Part shown: positions 1-16,343 of the stretch, piece by piece | How the letters are laid out: each line of letters starts with the position of its first letter | How positions within the stretch are numbered: position 1 is the stretch's first letter | Assembly (NCBI RefSeq): GCF_027571385.1 | Contig: NZ_CP085636.1 | Span: forward strand, 4,096,001-4,160,000 | Source of the DNA: Shewanella sp. MTB7 | GTDB lineage: Bacteria; Pseudomonadota; Gammaproteobacteria; Enterobacterales; Shewanellaceae | Direction: 5' to 3' | Length of the DNA stretch: 64,000 nt | The notes under the pieces: model-generated | Seen by the model: the letters and a program-made list of their open reading frames with translations, nothing else | Told to the model about the DNA's origin: nothing | The model's database searches: none | Translations under genes and position numbers: made by a program

Positions 1-1683
1 GGGAATTAACATCAGCTCCTGATATGTTTCAGGTAATCTTTGCTTCCACCTGCCGGGCAAGTGATACCAGCCAAAAGCACTAGACAGGATTGAAACCGGC
101 AGTAAGATCAACAAGACTAAGATCCCCGGCAGATTATCCTCGATTAAAGGAGCAAGCCAAAGCCCAGCCAAAAATCCCAAGATGACAGTGGGTAAGGCTT
201 CCATAATTTCAATGGTGGGTTTGACGACAGCGCGGACTTTAGGAGACATGAAATATGCGGTGTACACAGCACCAGCCAGTGCTAAAGGCGTAGCGAATAG
301 CATGGCATAGAATGCGGCTTTCATGGTACCGAACGCCAGCGGCATTAAGCTTAACTTAGCTTCAAAATCATCAGAACCTGAAGTTGATTGCCATACATAT
401 TTAGGCTCTGGGTACCCCTCATACCAGACCTTGTTCCACATGGCGTTCCATGACACTTCAGGGTGTTCATTTTTCACGCTAAATAGGTGTAATTGATCAC
501 CCGCTTCGACAACAAGTGCATTAGATCGCGGGCTAAAGCCCATTATCTTAGGGTCATTGAGATCAAATGTCTCAGAAAACAGCTTACGTTGACTGGTGGT
601 ATAGAGCAGTGAAAGCTCGCCTTGCTCACTGATTGTGATAAAGCTTTTTCGATAGAATTCACTGGCAATACTGGCAATAGGCCCAAGTTTATCGAAACTT
701 CTTATCTCTTGATATTGACGACCCTTTTCACCATTAACTTGAAAATACTGAGCCACTAAACCTGAATCATAACTCACAAGCAGTGAACTGGCGCCTGCAA
801 GTAAACTCACCTTTTTTACTTTGGCATTGGCTAATTCAAGCTCGATCACTTGCATTAATTGCAAATCTTCAACATCGCGAATATCGTAAACAAATAACTT
901 ATCAGCGCTTCTTAAAATGAGTTGGCGCTGATCTGGTGTCATCAATTGCTGCTGAACAGAAAAAGGTGTTTCTTGAATAATTCCCTTCGACGAGACCCAT
1001 TCGACCTCTTCAGTCATCATGTTCTCTTCGCCCTCCTGACGCGCCAAACGCCAGACCTTAGCATCATCTTGATAGATAAAACTCATCATCTCACTGTTAT
1101 AACCAAAGGCTAGGTTATGAAGTGCTGAACCATTTTCATCAATGGTTAACGCATCCTGACCCGCAGGAAACCGAATCTCAGGTGTAATAAGGCGATGATT
1201 ATTCGGGTAGGTCACCCCAAAATTCACTTCAGCTAACAGGAGCTGACCATTATCTAAGCCGAGTGCAAATCGCTGTTCACTCGGTGCAGAGACCGCACCA
1301 CTGGAAACGTGTACACCATCAGGTAAAACCAAGTGTTCCCGCTCGATAAGTTTCCCTGCTGTAGCGGTGTAAAAATCTACCTGACCGGTGTCCGATACAC
1401 GGTAAATGATCTCATTTTGCTCATCGCTACCGACCATCAACGCGGGCGTTACATCACTGAACAGATCGACATTGATCACAGGCTTTACTTCAGCGCCGTC
1501 AAAGATAGGTTTAACTATGTATAGGAGATAAAAAAAGATCAATAACAGCGCCACAAAAACCATGGTTCCACCTATGGTCACTCCCACCTGAGTCAACTTG
1601 TCTGTTATAGCTCTGCGACGTGAACCTTTACCCATAAGTAGGTTTTTAACCTTAGGTTCAGATTTTATCGCTTGAGTATCCAT
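1..1683 (-). CDS. pstC: PstC-like phosphate ABC transporter permease (3' end outside window)
   Basis: Inner-membrane permease subunit of a phosphate (Pst-type) ABC importer. The minus-strand frame is open from an ATG at 1683 to the window edge: 561 codons, no stop. It starts MDTQAIKSEPKVKNLL, has a first membrane segment at about residues 34-57, then roughly 370 residues of soluble periplasmic sequence. The permease core begins near residue 430 (LSLMPLAFGTMKAAFYAM) and contains EALPTVILGFLAGLWLAP, the EAA-type loop typical of PstC. The large insert between the first and second membrane segments matches the long PstC variants of Shewanella and Vibrio as I recall them; ordinary PstC is about 320 residues. 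Its repeated strand-rich pattern suggests a beta-propeller-like fold, which is inference. The partner permease and ATPase would lie beyond position 1. No clear Pho box was seen upstream. Confidence 0.85.
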   Translation of the reverse strand, partial: MDTQAIKSEPKVKNLLMGKGSRRRAITDKLTQVGVTIGGTMVFVALLLIFFYLLYIVKPIFDGAEVKPVINVDLFSDVTPALMVGSDEQNEIIYRVSDTGQVDFYTATAGKLIEREHLVLPDGVHVSSGAVSAPSEQRFALGLDNGQLLLAEVNFGVTYPNNHRLITPEIRFPAGQDALTIDENGSALHNLAFGYNSEMMSFIYQDDAKVWRLARQEGEENMMTEEVEWVSSKGIIQETPFSVQQQLMTPDQRQLILRSADKLFVYDIRDVEDLQLMQVIELELANAKVKKVSLLAGASSLLVSYDSGLVAQYFQVNGEKGRQYQEIRSFDKLGPIASIASEFYRKSFITISEQGELSLLYTTSQRKLFSETFDLNDPKIMGFSPRSNALVVEAGDQLHLFSVKNEHPEVSWNAMWNKVWYEGYPEPKYVWQSTSGSDDFEAKLSLMPLAFGTMKAAFYAMLFATPLALAGAVYTAYFMSPKVRAVVKPTIEIMEALPTVILGFLAGLWLAPLIEDNLPGILVLLILLPVSILSSAFGWYHLPGRWKQRLPETYQELMLIP

Positions 1684-1858
1684 TAAAACCTCGTTAATTA
1701 AGTCATCGGTTGACTTTTCACTGGGATTATTTCGATTGCTATGCTAAAAAGAGTCAAGCTCTTAATTCAGATAACTAGCATTATATGACGCAAAGATGAC
1801 ACTAGTGTTACAGCGGATTAGGCTAGAGAGAATAATTAATCATAGGAGAAATATCAAC

Positions 1859-2353
1859 ATGTTACGCTACTTAGTTACTCTTCAGGTACCGGATAAAAAT
1901 GGATTGGTTGAACAGATTTCTCATGCTGTAAGTCGACATGGAGGAAACTGGTTAGATTCAGAACTGCGTCACATTGATGGTATTTTTGCCGCCATCCTAT
2001 TATTAGAGGTTCCTGCATCAAATTGGGAGACCTTAGTCGAAAATCTAGAATGTATTGAAGGCTTAAGTTTAACCTTTGCAAAAACCAGCAAAGAACCTCT
2101 ACTATCTACCCATAAAAGCTACTCTTTAGTCGCCTATGACAGGCCCGGTTTAGTGCATGATATATCAAATAAAATCAGTGCTCTTGGAATAAACATTGAA
2201 CATTTTAGTACCCGTTATGAAAGTGCTGGTCATACCGGAGTCGCCCTCTTTAGAGCAAACTTTGATGTAGGCATGAACAGTGACGAACAAGAGGAACGAC
2301 TAAGCCAAGCCCTTTACGCCATAGGTGATGATGTCGTGTTAGACGAAATCTAG
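1859..2353 (+). CDS. gcvR: Double ACT-domain regulator, GcvR-like
   Basis: A 164-residue protein made of two ACT domains (about residues 3-75 and 88-160), the architecture of GcvR, the co-repressor that works with GcvA on the glycine cleavage operon. Motifs include VTLQVPDKNGLVEQIS at the start of the first domain and SLVAYDRPGLVHDISNKIS at the start of the second. I chose the ATG at 1859 because AGGAGA at 1844-1849 sits 9 bases upstream; the longer frame opening at 1796 adds residues with no family resemblance. GcvR proteins are usually 170-190 residues, so this is slightly short. A strong hairpin follows the stop. Other ACT-only regulators cannot be excluded. Confidence 0.8.
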   Translation: MLRYLVTLQVPDKNGLVEQISHAVSRHGGNWLDSELRHIDGIFAAILLLEVPASNWETLVENLECIEGLSLTFAKTSKEPLLSTHKSYSLVAYDRPGLVHDISNKISALGINIEHFSTRYESAGHTGVALFRANFDVGMNSDEQEERLSQALYAIGDDVVLDEI

Positions 2354-2365
2354 CTAAACATCTGT

Positions 2366-2397
2366 ATTTATAAGGGAGGAGCATCTCCCTTATAAAT
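2366..2397 (+). terminator. Hairpin after gcvR-like gene
   Basis: A perfect 13-bp inverted repeat (ATTTATAAGGGAG / CTCCCTTATAAAT) with a 6-base loop begins 12 bases after the stop. It lacks a long trailing T run, but the outer stem is A/T rich. Probable terminator. Confidence 0.6.
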
Positions 2398-2602
2398 ATC
2401 AATCAAGATCACCTTAAAGCACTCCACTGCAGATCCTATACTTCCATCCAAACAATCGAAAAAATCAATCAAGAATCATGTCAACAATCTGATAGACTAC
2501 TCGAAAATAAACACTATTAAATACAAGAGTCAATGGGGACAGGATTAACTCTCCCTGCAGAGCAAAAACGCACTTGCCAACAATTCAGGCTAGGAATACC
2601 TC

Positions 2603-3418
2603 ATGTTAGGACTTATAAGAAAAATGCGCGCCACGCTGGATGATAACCAACAGGTGCAATACCAACTGCCAATCGGTGATCAGTTACTCGACATGAACCC
2701 ACTGATAGGCACGACAGTGACCTTGACCCATACGGGTAAAATTTGTTGCAGTAATTGCGGTAAGAAAACCAAGAAGAGTTACTCTCAAGGCCATTGCTTT
2801 GTCTGTATGAAGAAACTGGCCAGTTGTGATATGTGCATCATGAAACCTGAGACTTGCCATTTTGCACAAGGAACCTGTCGTGAGCCCCAGTGGGGAGAAG
2901 CGAACTGTTTCGTGCCGCACTATGTTTATCTTTCAAATACTTCAGGACTTAAAGTGGGCATTACCCGTCACACTCAGTTACCTACCCGCTGGATAGATCA
3001 GGGCGCGACTCAAGGCCTGCCTATTTTGAAAGTATCAAGCAGACAAATTTCAGGTCTTGTGGAAGTTGAACTGGCTAAAATGATTGCCGATAAAACTAAC
3101 TGGCGCACTATGCTCAAGGGCAATGCAGAAGATATAGATCTCAAAGCTAAGGCCGCAGAACTACTGCCTGAAGTTGAACATAAAATATATGAGATCTGCA
3201 TGACTAATGGAGAGTACGCCATTGAGAAGTTAGATGAAGAGATACAGGGCATTCACTTTCCTGTGACTGAATTCCCCACCAAAATCAGCTCACATAATTT
3301 CGATAAAGACCCCGTCGTTAGCGGGATATTACTCGGCATTAAGGGGCAATATTTAATCTTCGATACAGGGGTAATTAATCTTAGAAAGTTTACCTCTTAT
3401 GAGATCAGTGTTAGCTAA
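2603..3418 (+). CDS. DUF2797 family protein
   Basis: A 271-residue soluble protein that I assign to the DUF2797 family; function unknown. The N-terminal half has a cysteine cluster (CCSNCGKKTK, HCFVCMKKLASCDMC, then TCHFAQGTCREP, about residues 48-93) that looks like metal-binding knuckles. After it comes HYVYLSNTSGLKVGITRHTQLPTRW, reminiscent of the GIY-YIG nuclease core (Y-x-Y then G-x-T plus R). A nucleic-acid-related role is inference only. AGGAA lies a short distance before the ATG at 2603; an ATG at residue 9 is an alternative start. A small terminator follows, so it is probably monocistronic. Confidence 0.8.
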   Translation: MLGLIRKMRATLDDNQQVQYQLPIGDQLLDMNPLIGTTVTLTHTGKICCSNCGKKTKKSYSQGHCFVCMKKLASCDMCIMKPETCHFAQGTCREPQWGEANCFVPHYVYLSNTSGLKVGITRHTQLPTRWIDQGATQGLPILKVSSRQISGLVEVELAKMIADKTNWRTMLKGNAEDIDLKAKAAELLPEVEHKIYEICMTNGEYAIEKLDEEIQGIHFPVTEFPTKISSHNFDKDPVVSGILLGIKGQYLIFDTGVINLRKFTSYEISVS

Positions 3419-3432
3419 CACATTGTATTTAT

Positions 3433-3454
3433 AGGGCTAGAAACTGGCCCTTTT
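3433..3454 (+). terminator. Terminator after DUF2797 gene
   Basis: AGGGC / GCCCT stem (3433-3437 with 3447-3451) with a 9-base loop, followed by TTTT, 14 bases after the stop. Typical short rho-independent terminator. Confidence 0.65.
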
Positions 3455-3627
3455 AGACTTCCAATAAAACCACTGAACAGTCACCCCAAATATCACTGTA
3501 ATTAATTCCCTTAGATTACACATGGACAAAACACTCACATTAATTTAACATTTAAATAACATGGAAGTTAGTCGACTCATTAGTATAATAATTTAACTAC
3601 TAATAGAAAAACACAAGGGAGTGTATC

Positions 3628-5189: not shown

Positions 5190-5212
5190 AAAAAATAACC
5201 AGGATGACCACC

Positions 5213-8200
5213 ATGAATAGGCTCTCACTCCACACAATGACACTTATTGCAGTGACTATTTTTTCCCCTTGGGTACACAGTGCTGCCGATGTGGACTTTA
5301 TCGGTGTAGTAGCCAATGCCAACCTAGGTCAACCCTATATCCATGGTGATTTTACTTTTGATCAAGATGTTAGTGGAGGTGGAGCTGAATTTATTGGGAT
5401 AATTGGTGGGGGAGCAATAGGAAACGTGGATGGGGGCTTAAACTCCAACATAGTGACCTTTAAAACAACAGACGGTAGTGAGTTTAGCCTTGTTTCTTTC
5501 CAACTGGAATCGGCAGCAGGCGATGATATTTACCTCGTTTCCGCTTATAAGGATGGTACAATACTCATTGGCGAAAGTTGGAATTTAACTGGCCAATATG
5601 GTTCTTACTTTACCTTTACCCCCACGAGTACACTTTTTAACGACACTGATGAGATACGGATAAGTAATAATGACAATTCAATCGGATTTATTGTTGTTAA
5701 CCTCGACAATATCGACGTTGATGTTGCCGTTCCACCTAACTCAGCCCCAATCACAGCCAACTTCAATGGTGACAGCTTCAGCTACACCGAAGGCGATGGA
5801 ACACAAACACTCGATCAGGGGACCAGCGCAACACTGACCGATGCTGACAGCGCCAACCTCAATGATGGTAATCTGACACTCACCATCACCTCAGGCAAAG
5901 ATGCAACAGAAGACTTATTATCAATCGATACTAGCGGTTCAGTCACATTAGCGGGAATCACTGCAGGCAACAATGTATCAATAACAGGCCCTGGCGTCGT
6001 TGGCACCTTGGGCAATAATATCGCTGCAGGGAATGACTTTGTCATCAACTTAAACGCCACAGCAACCCCTGCACATCTGCAAACATTAGTACGCGCCCTC
6101 ACCTACCAAAACAGCGATATTGATAATCCCACTACAGGGGCTCGAAATATACGTTTAACAGTCAATGATGGTGATGGCGGCACATCAGCTAATGCCGATA
6201 TCACTGTGACGGTAGCTGGCAGCAATGATGCTCCAGTTCTCACCAATTTGAGTGGAGATAGCTTAAATTATAATGAGGGTGATGGTGCTAAACTGATCGA
6301 CCAAGCCGCTAATGCCAGTCTAAACGACGTAGACTCATCTGATTTTAATACAGGTAACCTAAGCGTTTCTATTATTACCAATAAAGATGCTGCTGAAGAT
6401 ATTTTAGGTTTTGATAATAGCGTGACAACAAGCGGCGGTGCAGGAGATACTGTCACCATTAGTGCAACAAACGTAGGTACGCTAGCAAACTCCATCTCTG
6501 CTGGTAATGACTTAGTTGTTAACTTTACGAACAATGCCAACCCAGCGTTAATTCAAGCCCTTATCCGCAGCGTGACTTACACCAATAGTGATAACCTGAT
6601 CCCGACGCAAAGTACACGAACGGTAAGATTTACCGTGTCTGATGGTGATGGTGGAACCAGTTCAAATAATGATACGAGTGTTATCGTCAGCCAAGTTAAC
6701 GGTGCTCCCCTAGGGAGCAATAAGACGTTAACCCCCAACCAAGCGAGCATTCTCCCCCTTACCACCAGCGATTTTAGTTACAGCGATCCTGAAGGTGACA
6801 CATTAAACCGTATCACTATCATCAATGCACCTGCCAGCGGTTCACTCTGGGTTGATCTAGATGCGAGTAACAGCATAAATAATGCTGAATCGGCGCTCAC
6901 TTCCAGCGATACTGTCACTAAAGCAAACTTAGATGCGAGCTTATTAAAATACAGCCCCAGTGGGTCAACAAGTACTAATTTCACCTTTACCGTCAATGAT
7001 GGCAGTGCTGACTCCGCAAGCAATTACACCATCACATTAACGGTTAATGCCCAGCCTACAGTGACCATTAATCAAGCTTCGGGACAGAGCGATCCCACCA
7101 ATAATGCCACCGTGACGTTCGACGTGGTGTTTAATGAATCTATCTCAGGCTTTGATATAACAGATATCGACTTAAGTGGCGATGTGACTGCCAATGTGAC
7201 CTCGGTTTCCGCTTCTTCTGGCACAGGTTTTACCGTCACAACCAATATCAATGCCAATGAGGGCGATATTATCGCTCAAATCATTGCGGGCGGAGTGACC
7301 GATGCCTCTGGGGCCACGAACCAACCCAGTACCAGCACTGACAACACAATAGAATACGATATTAGTGCACCAGCAAGCCCAAGTGGTTTAGACCTTGTCA
7401 TCAGCTCAGATTCAGGCAACAGTGATAGCGATAATCTCACTTCTGATACAACACCTGAGATTTCAGGCAATGGTGAAACAGGAGCAAGCATTACGCTATT
7501 TAGTGATATTGATCACAGCGGCACTCTCAATGGTAGTGAAGCCTCAGTAACAACAAGTGTCAGCACGGGGACTTGGTCAGTGTCAATGCCGACTATAGCC
7601 AGTACAAGCCACTCTTTAAAAGCATTTCAAACCGATCCTGCCGGTAACGCGTCACCAGTGAGTGCTACTCTCACCATAGAGATAGATACCGTTGCTCCTA
7701 GCGGACATGGTGCAGTTATTGATCAAGACCCGATAAATAACGGTAATCAAGATTCGGTCAGTTTTACCTTTACTGCAGGCGAGGTAAGCAGCAATTACTC
7801 ATACACATTAACCAGCTCTGGTGGCGGAACACCTTTGACAGGTACTGGCACGCTATCAACAGCAATCGATACCATAACCAATATTGATGTCAGTAGCTTA
7901 ACTGATGGGACATTGACCCTTAGCACGATTTTAACTGATGCTGCAGGTAACAGTGCTGCGGCAGTAAACGATACCAGCGTTAAAGACAGCAGTGCGCCAA
8001 ACGGGCACGATGTCAGCATAGATCAAGCACTTATTTTAACCTCCAACGATAATGCACTGAGTTTCACATTTTCAGGAGCTGAATCCGGTGCTAACTTCGT
8101 CTATACAATCAACTCCAGTGGTGGAGGAAGTATTAACGGAACGGGGTCTTTAACCACAGTAAATGACACCATCTCCAATATCGATATGACGTCTCTTAGC

Positions 8201-11200
8201 GATGGAGTCTTAACTCTATCAGTGGTTGTAACTGACATTAACGGTAATGCAGCAACGGCAGTAATCGATACCGTAAACAAAGATGCCTTAGGCCCTGTGA
8301 TTCAATCTGTAGGATTAAACACTGGCAACATTAAGGCTGATGAGACCATCTTAGTCTCTGTGCAGTTTGATGATATCGTAATACTTTCAGGGTCTAACTC
8401 TACAGCCACGCTTTCAATTGGCGGCATCAGCCGAACCGCGGTTTATACCAGTGGGCACAACACATCCAGCTTAGACTTTAGTTATACTGTTATTAGTGGT
8501 GATAACGACAGTGATGGTGTCACGCTAACATCTGTTCAAGGGAATTCTGATACAGCGAAAGATGCCAATGGCAACGATGTCGACTTTAGCTTTACAGCTT
8601 TTACTGAAGCAAATTTACTCGTTGATACACAAACTCCGGTAGTGGCAACACCACTTCAGGCATCGCAAACAGTCAATGCAGATACGCTAACCTTATCTCA
8701 AAACAATTACCCAGAAGATGGGATCACTGTGATTGCACTCTCCGATTCAGATGGCAATGGTATCGCTGACAATAATACGCCATTAGCCAGTATCACATCA
8801 AACTCAGGCTCATGGTCTCTAACCCTTAATCTGTCTCAAAATGCGGATAACTACTTTATCTTGCGCACTACAGATCAAGCTGGAAACATGACAGATACAG
8901 CAATAGGCAACTATCTTGAAGATTCGATAGCTCCAGACGATGCTATCATCTTGAGTCCTATTGCCCACGTGTATCAATCTACTAACACAATTACAATTCA
9001 AGGCAGCCAGAGTGAGAATGGGGTATCGGTAAGTCTCTATTCAGATGCTGATAACAATGGTGTCGCCGACAGTAATACAGCTGTGGCATCAAGCGTAGTT
9101 GTGGCAAACAGCTGGAACATAGCGCTAACCTTGTCCGATAATACAAATGCTAACTATGTGGTTATAGCTCAAGATGATGCAGGAAACAGTGCCCAAGCTG
9201 TGGATCTCGTTACCCTCACCCATGACAATATCAACCCTATCGCTGACATAACTATAGTAACAAGTTTAGATAACACTCCGACTCTTAGGGGGTCAGTGAC
9301 CGATGCAGGGGGAATAGCTAACCTATCTTTTACTTTGGAAGCCAGCGACAACACAATTTTTGGACCTTTCGATGCCGACAGCTTTAGCGATATAAATAGC
9401 GGTGAATGGCTCGACAGTGAACTGGCAAGTACGTTAATTGACGACAGCTATGACGCTCACCTCTCACCCATAGATCTAGCTGGCAATACACAAATCCTCA
9501 CTATTTCAGATGCGATCAGAATCGATACGATTAGTCCCAACGGGTACAGCATAGAAATAGAACAAGATAGGATCGATACCAACAATGAGTCGGCACTTAG
9601 CTTTATCATTACAGGTGGAAATATTGGTGAAAGTTTTATCTATCAGATAAGTGACGGCAGTAGCTCTGTCACTGGTAGCGGCACCATTAATATTAGCAAT
9701 AACAGTAATTCGCAAACCATCAGCAATATTGATGTCAGCAGTTTAAATGAAGGCACACTTACTTTAACACTTTCATTGACTGATATCGCTGGAAATCAAG
9801 GTCTGAATGTCACTGACAGTCTAAACAAGTTCTATAACCTTGCGCCAGTGATCACCCAAGGAAACACGATAACTGTCACCATGAGTGAAGATGCAACACC
9901 AACCCCCTTTAGTCTCAATTTAACCGCTTCAGATCAAGATGGTGATTCGCTCAACTGGCAAATAACCTCGGGGACGAATAAAGGAGCAGCTTTACTTCAG
10001 GTCTCTGGCTATAACACCACAGTCAGCTACCTTCCAACAGCGAACTTCAATGGCAATGACAGCTTAACAGTGCAAGTCAGTGATGGAAGCTTAACCTCAC
10101 AGATCACGATCAACATTGTAATCACAGCGGTTAACGATGCTCCAAGGATCTCAGGTAATCCAATCACTTCAATTAGTGAAGATATCCCCTTTAATTTTGC
10201 ACCTGTGGTTAGTGATATAGACAGCACCCTTCTTAGTTGCAGTATTAGCGGATTGCCAACATGGGCAAGTTTTAATACCGTAACAGGAGTGTTAAGTGGT
10301 ACTCCGACTAACGCAAACGTGGGAACTCATGAGCATATCATTATCACTGTAAAAGACAATTTAGGTGCTATAAAGAGCCTGCCAAGTTTTAGCATCACAG
10401 TGACCAATGTTAATGATGCGCCTGTTATCAGTGGCTCACCTGCCAGCTCTGTTGATGAAGACAGTCTTTACAGTTTCACGCCAACCATGCTTGATGCCGA
10501 CAGTGATGACACTCACCAGTTTTCAATCAGCAATAAACCTGACTGGGCAAACTTTAACAACAGCAACGGAACTCTGTCTGGCACTCCAGTCAATGAAAAT
10601 ATAGGCACAAGCAGTAATATCATTATCAGCGTCACCGACAGTGCCAACGCAACAGCAAGCCTGTCCGTCTTTAGCATTGAAGTTAATAATACGAATGACG
10701 TTCCTGTTCTCCATACTTCCGAGCTTGAAGCCAAAGAAGATTCTGAGCTATTGTTTAGCTTAAATATCAGTGATGATGACAATGATGAATTGACCCTTAC
10801 TTTAGTCACTCAGCCTCAACACGGCTCTCTTAACACCAGCGGTTCACTGTGGCGCTATCAAGCTGATACCAATTACCATGGCGATGACAATTTCACCATT
10901 CTCATTAACGATGAGGAAACCAGCTCAGAACCTATTGAGGTGAGTATCAATGTACTTCCCGTCAATGATGCTCCTCAGGCGCACAATGACAGTTTCGAAC
11001 TCGACTATACGCCCAACAGGAATTACAGTTTACCGGTTTTGGCTAACGATCAAGATGTCGACGAAGACACACTTACCTTAGTCAGTGCTCAGTCGAGTTT
11101 AGGCGAAGTGATAATAGAGAATGAAGCACTACTGCTTACTTTAAATTCAGGTGTCACTGGCGATATTAACTTAAGCTACCTCATCGTTGATCCAGATGGT

Positions 11201-13951
11201 GAGAGCAGCCAAGCAGAAGTTAGTCTGCAGATAAAACCGAACGATGAAGCACTGCCCATATTAACGGTTCCCGAAGCCGTTAGTGTCCAAGCCCAAGGTT
11301 TATTTACCCGAGTTGATCTAGGCGTAGCAATCGCATTCGACAGTAAAGGTGAAGCGCTGCCAGTTAGCCTTCGATACGGACAGCCTCTATTCCAACCAGG
11401 TCGTCATTTGGTCTATTGGGAAACCACTGACAGTAACGGCAATACTAAAGTTGCCAGTCAACAGGTCGATGTCTACCCCTTAGTCAACTTCCATAAAGAT
11501 CAATTTGTTGTAGAGGGAACTTCAGCATCAGTTACTCTCTCCCTCAATGGCGATTCACCGCAATATCCCGTCGTTATCGACTTTACCCTTGAAGGCGATG
11601 CACGGGTAGATGAAGACTATCGTCTGTCCAGCCAGCAAGCTGTTATCACATCGGGACGGGATGTGACACTGATGATAGAGATCCTTGCTGACAATATCGA
11701 TGAGCCTAAGGAGCAGTTAGAACTGGTTATCGATGAGTCGGTTAATCGTGGCTATAAACCAAACCATACTCTATATATCGTTAACCACAATGTCGCACCA
11801 GAAATAGCGTTTGAGATAAGCCAAGCATCAGATCAAAGACAGATGCTTGGCATTGATGGCGGAGAGATCATTATTACCGCCAAATACTCAGATATTAACA
11901 GCAGTGATCAACTTACGCTCAGTTGGAATTTGAACACAATGCAGGTCCAAGATTTAGATCCATCAACCGATGTAATACGTTTCGACCCTATAGAGTTAGA
12001 ACCTGGCTACTATCCAATCAGAGCAGAGGTATCTGATGGGGTATTGGGCACCCAAGTTCAGGCCAACCTTCACTTAGTCGCCAGCTTGCCCACACTCGAC
12101 AATACTGATACTGATGGTGATATGATCCCGGATAATTTTGAAGGTTTTGGTGATGATGATCTAGACGGAGTCCCAAATTTCCAAGATGCACTACCGAGTT
12201 GTAACGTTCAGCCTGAGAATGTGGATGAACAGGTTCAATACCTCACTGAAGGGGAAGCTGGCGTATGCATTAACGTAGGCAGTATTGCCACTGGCGGGCA
12301 ACGAAACACTCTATTGCTTGATGAAGATGATGCATTACCAGAAGACAGTGAATTTCGCTTTAGCGGTGGAGTATTTGATTTTGTGGCTAGCGGCCTTCCA
12401 GTTCAAGGTAATCAATACCGTATTGTTCTACCCTTAACTAAGGCGATCCCCACCGATGCTATATACCGTAAATATAGTGAGACTCAAGGTTGGTACGACT
12501 TCGTTCAAGACGAATTTAATCAACTCCACAGTAGCCTGGGTGAACCCGGATACTGTCCATCTCCAGGGGATCTCAGTTGGCAAACAGGCTTAATAGAGGG
12601 AAGCTGGTGTATACAGTTAACAATCGTTGACGGTGGCCCTAATGATGACGATGGTGAAGCCAATTTTCACATCACAGATCCTGGCGGAGTTGCCACCATA
12701 AATACCAGCAACTTAGCGCCCCATGCTGAGGATGACATTGTGGTGCTTATTGAGTCCAGCTTGTTGCTGTTAGATCCAACACTGAATGATAGCGATCCTG
12801 AAGGCGGTAATATTCAGTTACTCAATGCTCAAGGCAGATTAGGTGCTGCTAGCATTAACCAAGCAGGCCTTTTGCAATATCAGGCACCTGCAGGTTACCT
12901 AGGAGAGGATGAAGTGCACTACACCATTATCGATAGAGAAGGCAATAGTGCCACCGCCCGCGTACTCATCACAGTTAAAGCAAATAAAATGCCAGTAACA
13001 GTAAACGATCACGCAACAACCGATGATAGAACCAGCATAGTGGTAGATGTGATCTCCAATGACATCGATGAGCAGGTGTTGCAGCTTATCTATGTCGATG
13101 CCGAAATAGGAAAAGTGGGTATCACGGCCAATGACCAGCTTCAATACACACCACAATTAGGTTATGAAGGAGAAGATCAGGTACTTTATCGCATTCAAGA
13201 TCCACTAGGTGCACAAATGGAAGGAATACTCATTGTGACAGTAGATGCATACCAGATAATTGAAGTGAAAAATGAGAGTAGTGGCGGCTCAATGGGCTTA
13301 TTTAGTGCCGCTCTGCTGCTATTATTGGGAGCCTTGAGGCGAAGTAAGGGCCTTATAAGCTTACTAAGTGTTAGTCTGATATTTTGTGGCGCAGCCCATG
13401 CACAATGGAGTGTTAATGCCCAAAGCGGCTATAGCCGGACATCAAGTGACGTTGACATATCACAACTTGAAAGCCTCGGCTTACTGGTTGATCAGTTCTC
13501 AAATAATAATAGAGATTGGAGTTGGAGCCTAGGCATAGACTATGAGGTAGTTCCAAACTGGCAAGTAAACTTAGGCTATCAAAATCTGGGTAACTATGAA
13601 TTTAGCGTTCAAGGAGAGGCATTGAGCCTAGCTCCCATTATTGGGTTGGCCTCCACTTTGGGTCCACGTTCAGCAACGGGAATCGACCTCGGACTCAGTT
13701 ATCGCTGGGAGGTGAGTGATTCTATCGGTTTAATGCTAGGTGGTGGTTTCTGGTTCTGGGAGAGTGATTTTACTAGCCTAATAAACCAGACACGGGTAAG
13801 TATTGATGAAAATGGCAGTGACTGGTTTAGTGATATATCAGTTTACTGGAGAATTGCTCCCCAATGGCAGATAGATCTAGGATGGCAACGCTTCATTATT
13901 GATAAGAATCATATCGACAACGGCTTTGCGCGTATCAGCTTTATGTTTTAA
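5213..13951 (+). CDS. Giant secreted multi-Ig/cadherin-like protein with C-terminal beta-barrel
   Basis: A 2912-residue surface protein. I chose ATG 5213 because AGGA (5201-5204) is then 8 bases away; ATG 5204 has no room for a ribosome site. A signal peptide covers residues 1-24. After a non-repetitive domain (about 25-170) come two ~160-residue repeats (about 176-495, each with a YTEGDG or YNEGDG motif), cadherin-like and bacterial Ig-like modules, and three copies of a GHxVxIDQ-type module (near 827, 930, 1441). Next are tandem-95/He_PIG modules (1542-2015, LSGTP and NDAP signatures), a Calx-beta-like unit (about 2092-2190) and thrombospondin-3-like calcium repeats (DTDGDMIPDNFEG, near 2300). 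The end is exceptional: GlyGly at 2691-2692 plus a hydrophobic stretch and RR (GlyGly-CTERM-like), then a signal-peptide-like segment ending GAAHA at 2730, then a 182-residue OmpA/OmpW-type barrel ending in FMF. Probably an adhesin or matrix protein. Confidence 0.85.
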   Translation: MNRLSLHTMTLIAVTIFSPWVHSAADVDFIGVVANANLGQPYIHGDFTFDQDVSGGGAEFIGIIGGGAIGNVDGGLNSNIVTFKTTDGSEFSLVSFQLESAAGDDIYLVSAYKDGTILIGESWNLTGQYGSYFTFTPTSTLFNDTDEIRISNNDNSIGFIVVNLDNIDVDVAVPPNSAPITANFNGDSFSYTEGDGTQTLDQGTSATLTDADSANLNDGNLTLTITSGKDATEDLLSIDTSGSVTLAGITAGNNVSITGPGVVGTLGNNIAAGNDFVINLNATATPAHLQTLVRALTYQNSDIDNPTTGARNIRLTVNDGDGGTSANADITVTVAGSNDAPVLTNLSGDSLNYNEGDGAKLIDQAANASLNDVDSSDFNTGNLSVSIITNKDAAEDILGFDNSVTTSGGAGDTVTISATNVGTLANSISAGNDLVVNFTNNANPALIQALIRSVTYTNSDNLIPTQSTRTVRFTVSDGDGGTSSNNDTSVIVSQVNGAPLGSNKTLTPNQASILPLTTSDFSYSDPEGDTLNRITIINAPASGSLWVDLDASNSINNAESALTSSDTVTKANLDASLLKYSPSGSTSTNFTFTVNDGSADSASNYTITLTVNAQPTVTINQASGQSDPTNNATVTFDVVFNESISGFDITDIDLSGDVTANVTSVSASSGTGFTVTTNINANEGDIIAQIIAGGVTDASGATNQPSTSTDNTIEYDISAPASPSGLDLVISSDSGNSDSDNLTSDTTPEISGNGETGASITLFSDIDHSGTLNGSEASVTTSVSTGTWSVSMPTIASTSHSLKAFQTDPAGNASPVSATLTIEIDTVAPSGHGAVIDQDPINNGNQDSVSFTFTAGEVSSNYSYTLTSSGGGTPLTGTGTLSTAIDTITNIDVSSLTDGTLTLSTILTDAAGNSAAAVNDTSVKDSSAPNGHDVSIDQALILTSNDNALSFTFSGAESGANFVYTINSSGGGSINGTGSLTTVNDTISNIDMTSLSDGVLTLSVVVTDINGNAATAVIDTVNKDALGPVIQSVGLNTGNIKADETILVSVQFDDIVILSGSNSTATLSIGGISRTAVYTSGHNTSSLDFSYTVISGDNDSDGVTLTSVQGNSDTAKDANGNDVDFSFTAFTEANLLVDTQTPVVATPLQASQTVNADTLTLSQNNYPEDGITVIALSDSDGNGIADNNTPLASITSNSGSWSLTLNLSQNADNYFILRTTDQAGNMTDTAIGNYLEDSIAPDDAIILSPIAHVYQSTNTITIQGSQSENGVSVSLYSDADNNGVADSNTAVASSVVVANSWNIALTLSDNTNANYVVIAQDDAGNSAQAVDLVTLTHDNINPIADITIVTSLDNTPTLRGSVTDAGGIANLSFTLEASDNTIFGPFDADSFSDINSGEWLDSELASTLIDDSYDAHLSPIDLAGNTQILTISDAIRIDTISPNGYSIEIEQDRIDTNNESALSFIITGGNIGESFIYQISDGSSSVTGSGTINISNNSNSQTISNIDVSSLNEGTLTLTLSLTDIAGNQGLNVTDSLNKFYNLAPVITQGNTITVTMSEDATPTPFSLNLTASDQDGDSLNWQITSGTNKGAALLQVSGYNTTVSYLPTANFNGNDSLTVQVSDGSLTSQITINIVITAVNDAPRISGNPITSISEDIPFNFAPVVSDIDSTLLSCSISGLPTWASFNTVTGVLSGTPTNANVGTHEHIIITVKDNLGAIKSLPSFSITVTNVNDAPVISGSPASSVDEDSLYSFTPTMLDADSDDTHQFSISNKPDWANFNNSNGTLSGTPVNENIGTSSNIIISVTDSANATASLSVFSIEVNNTNDVPVLHTSELEAKEDSELLFSLNISDDDNDELTLTLVTQPQHGSLNTSGSLWRYQADTNYHGDDNFTILINDEETSSEPIEVSINVLPVNDAPQAHNDSFELDYTPNRNYSLPVLANDQDVDEDTLTLVSAQSSLGEVIIENEALLLTLNSGVTGDINLSYLIVDPDGESSQAEVSLQIKPNDEALPILTVPEAVSVQAQGLFTRVDLGVAIAFDSKGEALPVSLRYGQPLFQPGRHLVYWETTDSNGNTKVASQQVDVYPLVNFHKDQFVVEGTSASVTLSLNGDSPQYPVVIDFTLEGDARVDEDYRLSSQQAVITSGRDVTLMIEILADNIDEPKEQLELVIDESVNRGYKPNHTLYIVNHNVAPEIAFEISQASDQRQMLGIDGGEIIITAKYSDINSSDQLTLSWNLNTMQVQDLDPSTDVIRFDPIELEPGYYPIRAEVSDGVLGTQVQANLHLVASLPTLDNTDTDGDMIPDNFEGFGDDDLDGVPNFQDALPSCNVQPENVDEQVQYLTEGEAGVCINVGSIATGGQRNTLLLDEDDALPEDSEFRFSGGVFDFVASGLPVQGNQYRIVLPLTKAIPTDAIYRKYSETQGWYDFVQDEFNQLHSSLGEPGYCPSPGDLSWQTGLIEGSWCIQLTIVDGGPNDDDGEANFHITDPGGVATINTSNLAPHAEDDIVVLIESSLLLLDPTLNDSDPEGGNIQLLNAQGRLGAASINQAGLLQYQAPAGYLGEDEVHYTIIDREGNSATARVLITVKANKMPVTVNDHATTDDRTSIVVDVISNDIDEQVLQLIYVDAEIGKVGITANDQLQYTPQLGYEGEDQVLYRIQDPLGAQMEGILIVTVDAYQIIEVKNESSGGSMGLFSAALLLLLGALRRSKGLISLLSVSLIFCGAAHAQWSVNAQSGYSRTSSDVDISQLESLGLLVDQFSNNNRDWSWSLGIDYEVVPNWQVNLGYQNLGNYEFSVQGEALSLAPIIGLASTLGPRSATGIDLGLSYRWEVSDSIGLMLGGGFWFWESDFTSLINQTRVSIDENGSDWFSDISVYWRIAPQWQIDLGWQRFIIDKNHIDNGFARISFMF

Positions 13952-14463
13952 CCGCTCTAGGTTATGGCCCTATCGCGCACACTAAAATAAATATAACGTC
14001 GGTGTCCTATCATTTTTCTGGCCACCGCCTATCTTCATATAGCAAGTTAATATTAGCTTGCAGCCCATCCTTCCTATCAATTCTGCCAAAAGCTTGATCA
14101 GTTCAAAACACTTATAAACTCGATATTAAGGGGGATGGCAAACATAATGACTAAAAAACCAGAGTGGAATAAATTATTTTATTAACACAATATTAACCTA
14201 ATAATTTCCTATTCATGTCTTAAACAACAGTTAAAGTAACCGATATTACTGAGTTTTTTTATAAACACTAATTTAAAACAAGCTTGAAAGTCGCTTGATT
14301 ACTGGCTTTGTGAAAAAAATAACTATTGCCTCCTCTGGTCTAATCAGTTAACAATAATGAAACATGGTTACTTTTCATACAAGATTGACTTAAATCAACA
14401 AGAGAGATAACCACTAACAAGATGATTGATGATCATTTTAACAAGACAAAACTGGGGAACTTT
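13952..14463. other. AT-rich intergenic region before lipase operon
   Basis: About 510 bases, strongly A/T rich, without a plausible gene, clear terminator or recognisable operator. It presumably contains the lipase promoter. Confidence 0.5.
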
Positions 14464-15381
14464 ATGAAAACATGGCTCACTGTTATTTCACTCCTTTTAA
14501 TCAGCTTATTTTACCCTGCTCAATCCGACGCTGCCGCGACTAAATACCCTGTTGTACTGGTTCATGGCTTCATGGGCTTTGATGATGCATTAGGAATAGA
14601 TTATTTTTATGGTATTCCTCGTGCTTTGAGAAACCAAGGCGTACAGGTTTTTGTTGCAAGAGTATCACCGGTTAACTCATCTGAAGTCAGAGGTGAGCAA
14701 CTCAGACGTTACGTACAATCGGTACTTGCTTATACTGGCGCTCAAAAGGTGAACTTAATAGGCCACAGTCATGGCGGACCAACTGCACGCTATGTGGCCA
14801 GTGTAAGTCCCCAAATGGTCGCAACGGTAACCTCTGTTGGTGGAGTGAATTGGGGCAGTAGCTTCGCTGATTTTCTTAGGGGAGCTATTCCTGTCAACTC
14901 TTGGGTAGAGTGGTCAGTCAACATTGCATTTAATACGTTATCTCGACTCGTTACAGGTGTATCTGGTGGTGGAAACTACCCTGCTGATACATTAGCCTCT
15001 ACAGAGTCTCTCACCACCCGCGGTTCTATCAAGTTTAACCAGAAATATCCCGAAGGCATACCAAACCAGTATTGTGGTTATGGATCTGCAAGAGCTAATA
15101 ATGGGGTAAATTACTACTCTTGGTCAGGAACAAGTCATAGAACCAACTTTTGGGATGCCAGTGATGCGGCATTAAACGTGACAAGTTGGGTATTTAACGA
15201 ACCTAATGATGGTCTAGTATCACGATGTAGTTCTCACTTAGGAAAAGTGATCCGCGACAACTATAATATGAACCACTTAGATGAAATAAATCAGTTATTT
15301 GGTTTAGTAAGCTGGCGTGAAACTAATCCAAAAACCTTATACAAAGCACATATTAACCGTCTTGCAAATAGTGGATTTTAA
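14464..15381 (+). CDS. lipA: Secreted triacylglycerol lipase (family I, foldase-dependent)
   Basis: A 305-residue extracellular lipase hydrolysing triacylglycerols. Signal peptide at about residues 1-24 (MKTWLTVISLLLISLF ... SDAAA). The oxyanion motif is VVLVHGFMG (30-38), and the nucleophile is Ser102 in IGHSHGG. The acid and base are in NDGLVSRC and MNHLDEIN, and two cysteines (NQYCGYG and SRCSSH) match the conserved disulphide of Pseudomonas/Burkholderia family I.1-I.2 lipases. The ATG at 14464 is preceded by GGGGA at 14454-14458; an upstream ATG adds 14 unlikely residues. It overlaps the foldase start by one base (TAATG), so the two are translationally coupled. Export should be Sec plus type II secretion. 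Confidence 0.93.
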   Translation: MKTWLTVISLLLISLFYPAQSDAAATKYPVVLVHGFMGFDDALGIDYFYGIPRALRNQGVQVFVARVSPVNSSEVRGEQLRRYVQSVLAYTGAQKVNLIGHSHGGPTARYVASVSPQMVATVTSVGGVNWGSSFADFLRGAIPVNSWVEWSVNIAFNTLSRLVTGVSGGGNYPADTLASTESLTTRGSIKFNQKYPEGIPNQYCGYGSARANNGVNYYSWSGTSHRTNFWDASDAALNVTSWVFNEPNDGLVSRCSSHLGKVIRDNYNMNHLDEINQLFGLVSWRETNPKTLYKAHINRLANSGF

Positions 15382-16343
15382 TGCAAAATAAAAGCAGCAA
15401 TAACAGCCCTCTCCCTACAGCACGTATTTTGCTTTTAAGCTTAATATTGATCTTAATGGGGGGGGGGCTTATCTACTTCAATGGTCCACACGACGTCTTC
15501 GAAGGCCATACTCTACACAGCGGAAATGAGATACCTCAAACTCAACCGGAGTTGGTTGCAGAAGGTATAACAACTCCCATCTCTACAGGATTATCACAGC
15601 TCATTCTGAATCAACAGCTGAGATGGGATTTTGATGATCTCATTCTGACGCACCAAGAAACCGGTCAAACGATAACTTCCCTGTTATTCGCACTTTCGAA
15701 GCAACGTAATTTAACCCCTGACGCCCATCATTATTTAATGGATCTATTTAATCGATATCGAGACTACAAAATAGCCTTGGTTGAGGTAAAGAAGATGGGG
15801 CCAAACATGCTTAATGAACTCGATATTGAAGATACACTCGATTTTATAGAACGAGCTCATCAAAGTCAATTTGATTACTTTACTCAAATAGAGATAGATG
15901 CGTTTTTTAGTGATGAGAATGCCTATGATATTCAGGCTATTGAGAGAATGGCTATCCTACAAGATAGTTCGCTTTCCAGTGAACAGAAACAGATGTTAAT
16001 TGCCCATCAAATAAGCCAGATGGATGCCGAAGAGAGAGAGGTTTATGAACCTAGTCTACAGGTTTTTAATATTGTCGATAATCTTGAAGGCAAAAGCAGC
16101 CAACTCAACGAATTCACACCTGAGGTGATCGAACGCATTGAACAACTAAAAAAGGATGAGCAAGTTTGGAAAACAAAAATTACCGATTTTCTGGCTTTTC
16201 AAGTTCAAAGTAGAAATGAACAAACTGATGACACTCTCGCGCAAGAAACTATAGATAATTATCAAAATAGAAACTTTAGTGCCAACGAACTTAAACGGCT
16301 TCAAGTGTATATCGACAACCCCGAGTTATTAAATACCCATTAG
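15381..16343 (+). CDS. lifO: Lipase-specific foldase (Lif) with poly-G tract
   Basis: A 320-residue inner-membrane-anchored periplasmic chaperone that folds the lipase encoded just upstream. One N-terminal membrane segment (about residues 16-34) is followed by a helical, acidic, glutamine-rich body typical of Lif. The family motif R-x-x-F-D-Y-(F/C)-L-S-A-x-G-E is only partly kept: LRWDFDDLILTHQETG. The start overlaps the lipase stop. A run of ten G bases (15458-15467) codes the last base of Met26 and Gly27-29 inside the membrane anchor. A one-base slip there would truncate the foldase and abolish active lipase, so this may be a phase-variable switch (inference). Confidence 0.88.
   Translation: MQNKSSNNSPLPTARILLLSLILILMGGGLIYFNGPHDVFEGHTLHSGNEIPQTQPELVAEGITTPISTGLSQLILNQQLRWDFDDLILTHQETGQTITSLLFALSKQRNLTPDAHHYLMDLFNRYRDYKIALVEVKKMGPNMLNELDIEDTLDFIERAHQSQFDYFTQIEIDAFFSDENAYDIQAIERMAILQDSSLSSEQKQMLIAHQISQMDAEEREVYEPSLQVFNIVDNLEGKSSQLNEFTPEVIERIEQLKKDEQVWKTKITDFLAFQVQSRNEQTDDTLAQETIDNYQNRNFSANELKRLQVYIDNPELLNTH
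15458..15467 (+). repeat. Homopolymeric G10 tract inside foldase gene
   Basis: Ten consecutive G bases within codons 26-29 of the foldase. Other G/C runs noticed in the window do not exceed about seven. Candidate slipped-strand contingency tract. Confidence 0.8.

Follow-up and report, generated by a model that had tools for sequence, protein, structure and literature searches.

A predicted polyprotein in Shewanella: an internal GlyGly-CTERM-like tail between an adhesin and an OmpA-like barrel

Introduction

Rhombosortase substrates are defined by a tag at the extreme C-terminus, the GlyGly-CTERM sorting signal (TIGR03501), on which the intramembrane protease rhombosortase (TIGR03902) acts. 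For VesB from Vibrio cholerae it was shown that the rhombosortase cut exposes the second glycine, that a glycerophosphoethanolamine-containing group is then joined and that export by the type II system follows (PMC6219818). In 2026, the GlyGly-CTERM was reported as an independent targeting motif that works on unrelated proteins too (PMC13393428). Here, we describe an apparently functional tag of this kind inside a chain. In a stretch of 64,000 nucleotides (nt) from Shewanella sp. MTB7 (contig NZ_CP085636.1, positions 4,096,001 to 4,160,000; hereafter the window), one gene joins a large adhesin, a GlyGly-CTERM-like tail, a second signal peptide and an outer-membrane barrel. As judged from its sequence, it probably encodes a polyprotein from which rhombosortase and signal peptidase would yield the adhesin and a separate barrel. 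Neither an internal GlyGly-CTERM nor an adhesin-barrel precursor of this kind was found described in the open-access literature searched, as far as the texts were available.

Two other kinds of precursor resemble this arrangement in part. FbcH of Bradyrhizobium, for which the literature search found no paper, is a cytochrome b/c1 precursor cut by signal peptidase. It shares the internal signal peptide and the two proteins per chain, whereas its products are respiratory subunits, and it has neither a sorting protease nor an outer-membrane product. Autotransporters (type V secretion) likewise carry a large N-terminal surface part and a C-terminal barrel in a single chain, the barrel being a 12-strand translocator joined to its passenger. 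In contrast, the barrel described here is small and OmpA-like, a transmembrane (TM) hairpin intervenes, and the surface part is expected to leave by type II secretion and not via the barrel. The OmpA-like barrel and the hairpin rule out an autotransporter.

The fused gene and its internal sorting signal

The genome consists of one contig of 6.37 Mb. On the forward strand of the window a single open frame (5204-13951, +) codes for 2915 amino acids (aa), counted from the first ATG (MTTMNR), in the order adhesin, GlyGly motif, first TM segment (TM1), two arginines (RR), second signal peptide ending in AHA, and barrel. A sequence-only reading of the stretch had noticed the tail, the second signal peptide and the barrel in one frame, and this is confirmed. 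With the alternative start MNR the protein would have 2912 aa, the length of the relative P0002, and the residue numbers of that reading are 3 lower than ours, which a start at MNR would explain. The N-terminal signal peptide (MTTMNR...VHSA; 5204-5284, +) is predicted, with a cleavage site read by eye. The adhesin part (5285-13276, +), by Pfam and NCBIfam scans, contains immunoglobulin (Ig)/cadherin-like repeats (Big_9, Cadherin_4/5, He_PIG, Big_13 and tandem-95) and a choice-of-anchor U domain with residues 2469-2497 as best stretch. This domain is followed by SSGGSMGLFSAALLLLLGALRR, then by SKGLISLLSVSLIFCGAAHA and last by the 182-residue barrel with a final Phe. The internal tail with SSGGS, TM1 and RR (13277-13342, +; residues 2692-2713) holds the predicted rhombosortase site. 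The basic loop and the second TM segment (TM2) ending in GAAHA (13343-13402, +; residues 2714-2733) form a predicted internal signal peptide, which is conserved in relatives when set against controls, and the barrel (Q2734-F2915) with the stop codon occupies 13403-13951 (+).

The tail shows the features of a GlyGly-CTERM apart from its place: a Gly-rich motif without Cys, a hydrophobic TM stretch, basic residues and a score over the curated TIGR03501 cut-off of 15.5 bits. The score was 20.2 bits when the genome was scanned (E 0.011 for a single genome) and 16.0 bits for the excised piece, while TIGR03501 was absent at E ≤ 1 from the matches of the full 2915-aa protein. Among the control genomes, a match over the cut-off occurred in 1 of 14 and some match at E ≤ 10 in 11 of 14. 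Eight of the 11 matches in the MTB7 genome are readable GlyGly tails; seven of these stop 0-4 residues past the motif and only that of the fused gene continues, for 202 residues. Since the extreme C-terminal position is lacking, the tail is an internal variant of the known sorting signal. In an alignment of 40 fused sequences, the window's included (A1), the positions G, G, S and the first Arg are conserved to at least 90%, with a mean column identity of 40%. One relative has already been called a GlyGly-CTERM protein by NCBI; annotation has thus noticed the tail and, as far as found, not its internal position.

Conservation of the junction

The region between the GlyGly motif and the barrel was scored in 80 of 82 fused frames (the 81 counted below plus that of G097, which ends with its contig); that of G434 was judged by eye to have the junction. 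A second hydrophobic segment, i.e., a 10-residue mean of at least 2.0, is present in 79 of 80 (window included), where 2.3 would be expected from other parts of these frames, and [AVS]xA follows TM2 in 74 of 80 against 27.7 expected. Of the 80 genes, 77 have the GG pair itself. Since the search rule included a basic residue after TM1, the basic loop adds no independent support. Over 79 fused genes, TM1 and TM2 are separated by a loop of 3 to 36 residues. Pooled ratios of nonsynonymous to synonymous substitution rates from 17 pairs were 0.112 for the last 200 adhesin codons, 0.131 for the barrel, 0.215 for GG plus TM1 and 0.29 for loop plus TM2, with single pairs up to 0.68. These values indicate that the junction is under purifying selection, though looser than its flanks, as in signal peptides. 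In the AlphaFold2 (AF2) model the hairpin appears as two short helices with a predicted local distance difference test (pLDDT) score of about 49-68, the TM2 helix being of low confidence.

Single loci show how far the region can vary. The paralogues L086 and L094 of genome G024 are near-identical in adhesin end and barrel and very different in the GG-hairpin junction, as if this had been swapped or had escaped gene conversion. In the 4116-aa frame L099 (G123) about 270 residues, partly repeated, separate the GlyGly motif from the barrel.

Fused, split and lone barrels

With the single barrel sequence as query, 53 of 129 genomes of the genus gave a match at E ≤ 1e-3. A barrel profile (A2) matched in 126 of 129 at E ≤ 1e-5, and only 65 matches in 52 genomes reached 100 bits; the weaker listed matches, mostly in frames of about 200-430 aa, were taken for ordinary OmpA-like proteins. 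The order sample contained the barrel in 43 of 394 genomes and 16 of 114 genera (E ≤ 1e-18), the class sample in 23 of 369 genomes, the window's own among them. Altogether 102 matches from genus and order were read, 37 of them from outside the genus; the genus part comprised the 65 matches of at least 100 bits minus two contig-edge pieces of G097, plus the weaker G092 and a second match of G028. Other genus profile matches below 100 bits and the weak single-sequence matches in G016 and in contig 11 of G041 were left aside. Four loci were excluded, G084 as a fragment, G097 at its contig end, and G092 and the second G028 match with fewer than 150 profile positions, which leaves 98 near-complete barrels.

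These 98 are fused in 81 cases (window included), split into two genes in 14 and alone in three, one of which (L116 of G204) lies near a contig end with the upstream gene out of view. Fused means that the barrel begins more than 240 residues into its frame; contig ends cut some frames, and that of G122 retains only about 250 residues ahead of the barrel. The sequence-only reading had suspected a fusion of two complete genes and had asked whether most relatives keep a stop codon between tail and barrel. Two-gene relatives do exist, and most barrels have no such stop. An assembly or sequencing error that deleted a stop codon could appeal to the fact that no other readable GlyGly tail of this genome runs on; we give it practically no credence. 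The relative P0003, 97% identical over the junction region, lies on a separate 75,897-base contig, and the 80 other fused barrels rule out both an error and a recent fusion.

In the split form, a Gly-containing motif precedes the TM segment in 13 of 14 upstream tails, with a GG pair in 10 of 14, and a stop codon follows the tail. The barrel start, chosen by us as the ATG nearest to the upstream stop, lies between -8 and +22 nt from it in 13 of 14 loci (-4 in six, -1 in two, and -8, -7, +1, +7 and +22 in one each; +216 in G315). Each half thus carries its own signals. On a barrel tree the fused/split state takes seven changes, four of which are forced by well-supported branches; the tree was built by a quick method and 35 of its 93 inner branches are weak. 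From this tree, lineages appear to interchange between the one-gene and the two-gene form. The named protein relatives come from Shewanella (4) and Ferrimonas (1); the sole locus returned by the single-protein search, and the nearest named one, is that of S. hanedai (70% identity).

Apart from the window's own genome, the class sample has 22 genomes with the barrel, which were assigned by eye to fused with hairpin (8), split (4), directly joined (4) and barrel alone (6), with the 862-aa frame L169 judged a lone barrel. The split loci include L168, whose two genes lie 195 nt apart, and L160, where the gap is 27 nt; the Gly motif in the upstream tail of L160 holds Cys and is more MYXO-CTERM-like. 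The outer parts of seven fused proteins besides the window's were scanned. Ig/cadherin repeats were found in L126, L082 and L132, Ig-like, cadherin-like and bacterial TSP3 repeats in L120, a lactonase-type propeller with Listeria-Bacteroides/InlB-type repeats in L138, DUF11 in L174, and InlB-type repeats with a lectin-like match under its cut-off in L163. Because the outer part varies in this way, hairpin and barrel look like a cassette placed on different surface proteins.

Association with rhombosortase

As in the described GlyGly-CTERM system, the window genome holds both a rhombosortase (TIGR03902, 175 bits), the enzyme that the sequence-only reading had proposed to look for, and a type II secretin. 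The genus offers no contrast, since rhombosortase is over its cut-off in 128 of 129 genomes and the exception is 52% complete. In the order sample, rhombosortase is over its cut-off in 41 of 43 barrel genomes vs. 189 of 351 others (Fisher p 1.3e-8, kinship ignored), and in the class sample in 12 of 12 genomes with the fused-with-hairpin or split form vs. 2 of 6 with the barrel alone. At locus L163 the fused gene (807-3529) is followed on the same strand, after 41 nt, by a rhombosortase gene (137.6 bits), of which the genome has a second copy elsewhere. That rhombosortase can be adjacent to a dedicated target has been published (PMC3237569), and so this adjacency supports the fused protein as substrate. 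A rhombosortase match was seen in only two of the loci examined, loci fetched by rhombosortase being excluded, and most loci span a few kb past the gene. At L164 (3-1774) a rhombosortase gene is convergent with the barrel gene, with 41 nt between the ends. In G106 (L141 and L144), which has three fused barrel genes, rhombosortase matches are spread over two frames, by error or decay.

The near-invariant GG pair and the association with rhombosortase also bear on the possibility that only signal peptidase cuts, after AHA, while TM1 tethers the adhesin to the inner membrane and the GlyGly motif is a relic or slowly cut. TM2 with AxA is the best supported part of the junction, and no report of rhombosortase cutting at an internal site was found in the open-access literature searched, within the text available, which weighs against joint cleavage by the two proteases. 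A relic would hardly be expected to keep GG in 77 of 80 scored genes and at least 90% conserved in A1; the relic is disfavoured on this ground, and we regard cleavage by signal peptidase only as unlikely.

The barrel

The sequence-only reading had called the barrel a porin, and this has to be corrected. General porins are pores of 16-18 strands, and such a porin is ruled out by the 182 residues and by the best matches of the barrel. It matches Pfam OMP_b-brl, and the AF2 model, two short helices plus a barrel, has a mean pLDDT of 82.6. Its top solved matches in Foldseek are the OmpA transmembrane domain, Ail, OmpX and NspA, with 9fzc and 9fzd as best matches (target TM-score 0.78-0.81); the strand list of the model was not resolved into eight strands. 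A profile search against the PDB agrees, and by its fold the domain belongs with the OmpA transmembrane domain. The barrel is therefore OmpA/Ail/OmpX-like. It shares the fold and a distant sequence match with these and with AcfA-like barrels; unlike them, it scores under the cut-offs of the named NCBIfam families (23.0 of 100 bits for AcfA) and is synthesized at the end of a giant precursor.

The repeated pairing of the barrel with GlyGly-type surface proteins, fused or in touching genes, together with direct fusions without a hairpin, suggests that it may be an outer-membrane partner of the adhesin, which is a guess at this stage. That so small an OmpA-like barrel serves as an export channel is unlikely.

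Proposed processing

The following course may be envisaged. Sec would carry the adhesin part into the periplasm, and TM1 would act as stop-transfer sequence, leaving RR in the cytoplasm. TM2 would serve as internal signal peptide, so that transfer resumes and the barrel crosses the membrane; both assignments follow from the positive-inside rule, by which positively charged residues stay on the inner side. Cleavage by signal peptidase I after AHA would free the barrel for the Bam machinery, and cleavage by rhombosortase at the GlyGly motif would free the adhesin, which the type II system would bring to the surface. By analogy, VesB-like processing may take place at the internal site of the fused protein. 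The same pair of products would arise as in relatives with touching genes, where one gene encodes a surface protein with a GlyGly tail and the other a barrel that has its own signal peptide. Of the earlier proposal of a released secreted part and a separate barrel, the anatomy fits and the two cleavages stand as predictions; the term self-cleaving is to be dropped, since the cuts are predicted to be made by host proteases, namely rhombosortase and signal peptidase I.

Several observations speak against this course. According to the defining paper, a GlyGly-CTERM is required to stand at the extreme C-terminus, and members have no TM segment except the signal peptide (PMC3237569). The tail described here is internal, with 202 residues after it, and it is followed by TM2 and the 182-residue barrel. 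At E ≤ 10, 27 of the 40 A1 members match TIGR03501 and 13 do not. Two barrel genomes, G227 (99% complete) and G284 (80%), have only rhomboids below the rhombosortase cut-off. The fused gene L130 from G227 lacks TM2; its frame of 545 aa has a single hydrophobic segment ahead of the barrel, in a genome with rhombosortase not over the cut-off. Furthermore, ATG codons are over-represented in the loop between TM1 and TM2 (16 of 80 vs. 7.0 expected). In four class-level genomes (L148/L172, L159, L173 and L155) the barrel is directly joined to repeats or other sequence without GlyGly motif or TM hairpin, and three of these four have rhombosortase.

From the direct joins it follows that uncut forms may exist, and they are what favours a chain in which adhesin and barrel stay together, the barrel anchoring the adhesin covalently and the hairpin being tolerated. 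Against this, the inner membrane would retain a chain with two hydrophobic segments, and adhesin and barrel can exist as separate chains, as the 14 split forms demonstrate; for the fused gene we hold an uncut product to be very unlikely.

The ATG codons could also point to a barrel made separately from a translation start inside the gene. Met stands directly after GG[S/A] in 31 of 77 scored genes, where 33% of the motif Gly codons are GGA vs. 13% frame-wide, and Shine-Dalgarno-like Gly codons precede the ATG in 19 of the 31 Met genes vs. 6 of 46 others (e.g., L053, L054 and L060). However, such codons are mostly confined to a few related Shewanella genes, and the window gene reads GGC GGC TCA ATG and has none. 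Ahead of TM2, an ATG with a Shine-Dalgarno site occurs in the loop about as often as by chance (2 of 80 vs. 1.8 expected); a wider count (27 of 82 vs. 4.4 expected) had included the GlyGly codons, and a start in the loop was rejected on the count for the loop alone. An internal start therefore appears extremely improbable, and a polyprotein cut by rhombosortase and signal peptidase is still the probable reading.

Downstream of the fused gene, the window contains a lipase-like alpha/beta hydrolase and a lipase-chaperone gene (14422-16343).

Implications

The internal tag is conserved in the genus, in the order and in genomes beyond the order. Three questions thereby become directly testable: does rhombosortase require a free tail at the C-terminus, do an intramembrane protease and signal peptidase jointly split a bacterial polyprotein, and do surface proteins of this kind have a dedicated outer-membrane partner? 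Tentatively, and going beyond what we consider probable, GlyGly site, TM hairpin and OmpA-like barrel could form a widespread, movable C-terminal cassette by which one translation product gives a lipid-tagged surface protein together with an equal amount of its dedicated receptor or anchor in the outer membrane, by way of rhombosortase and signal peptidase, with repeated switching between the one-gene and the two-gene form.

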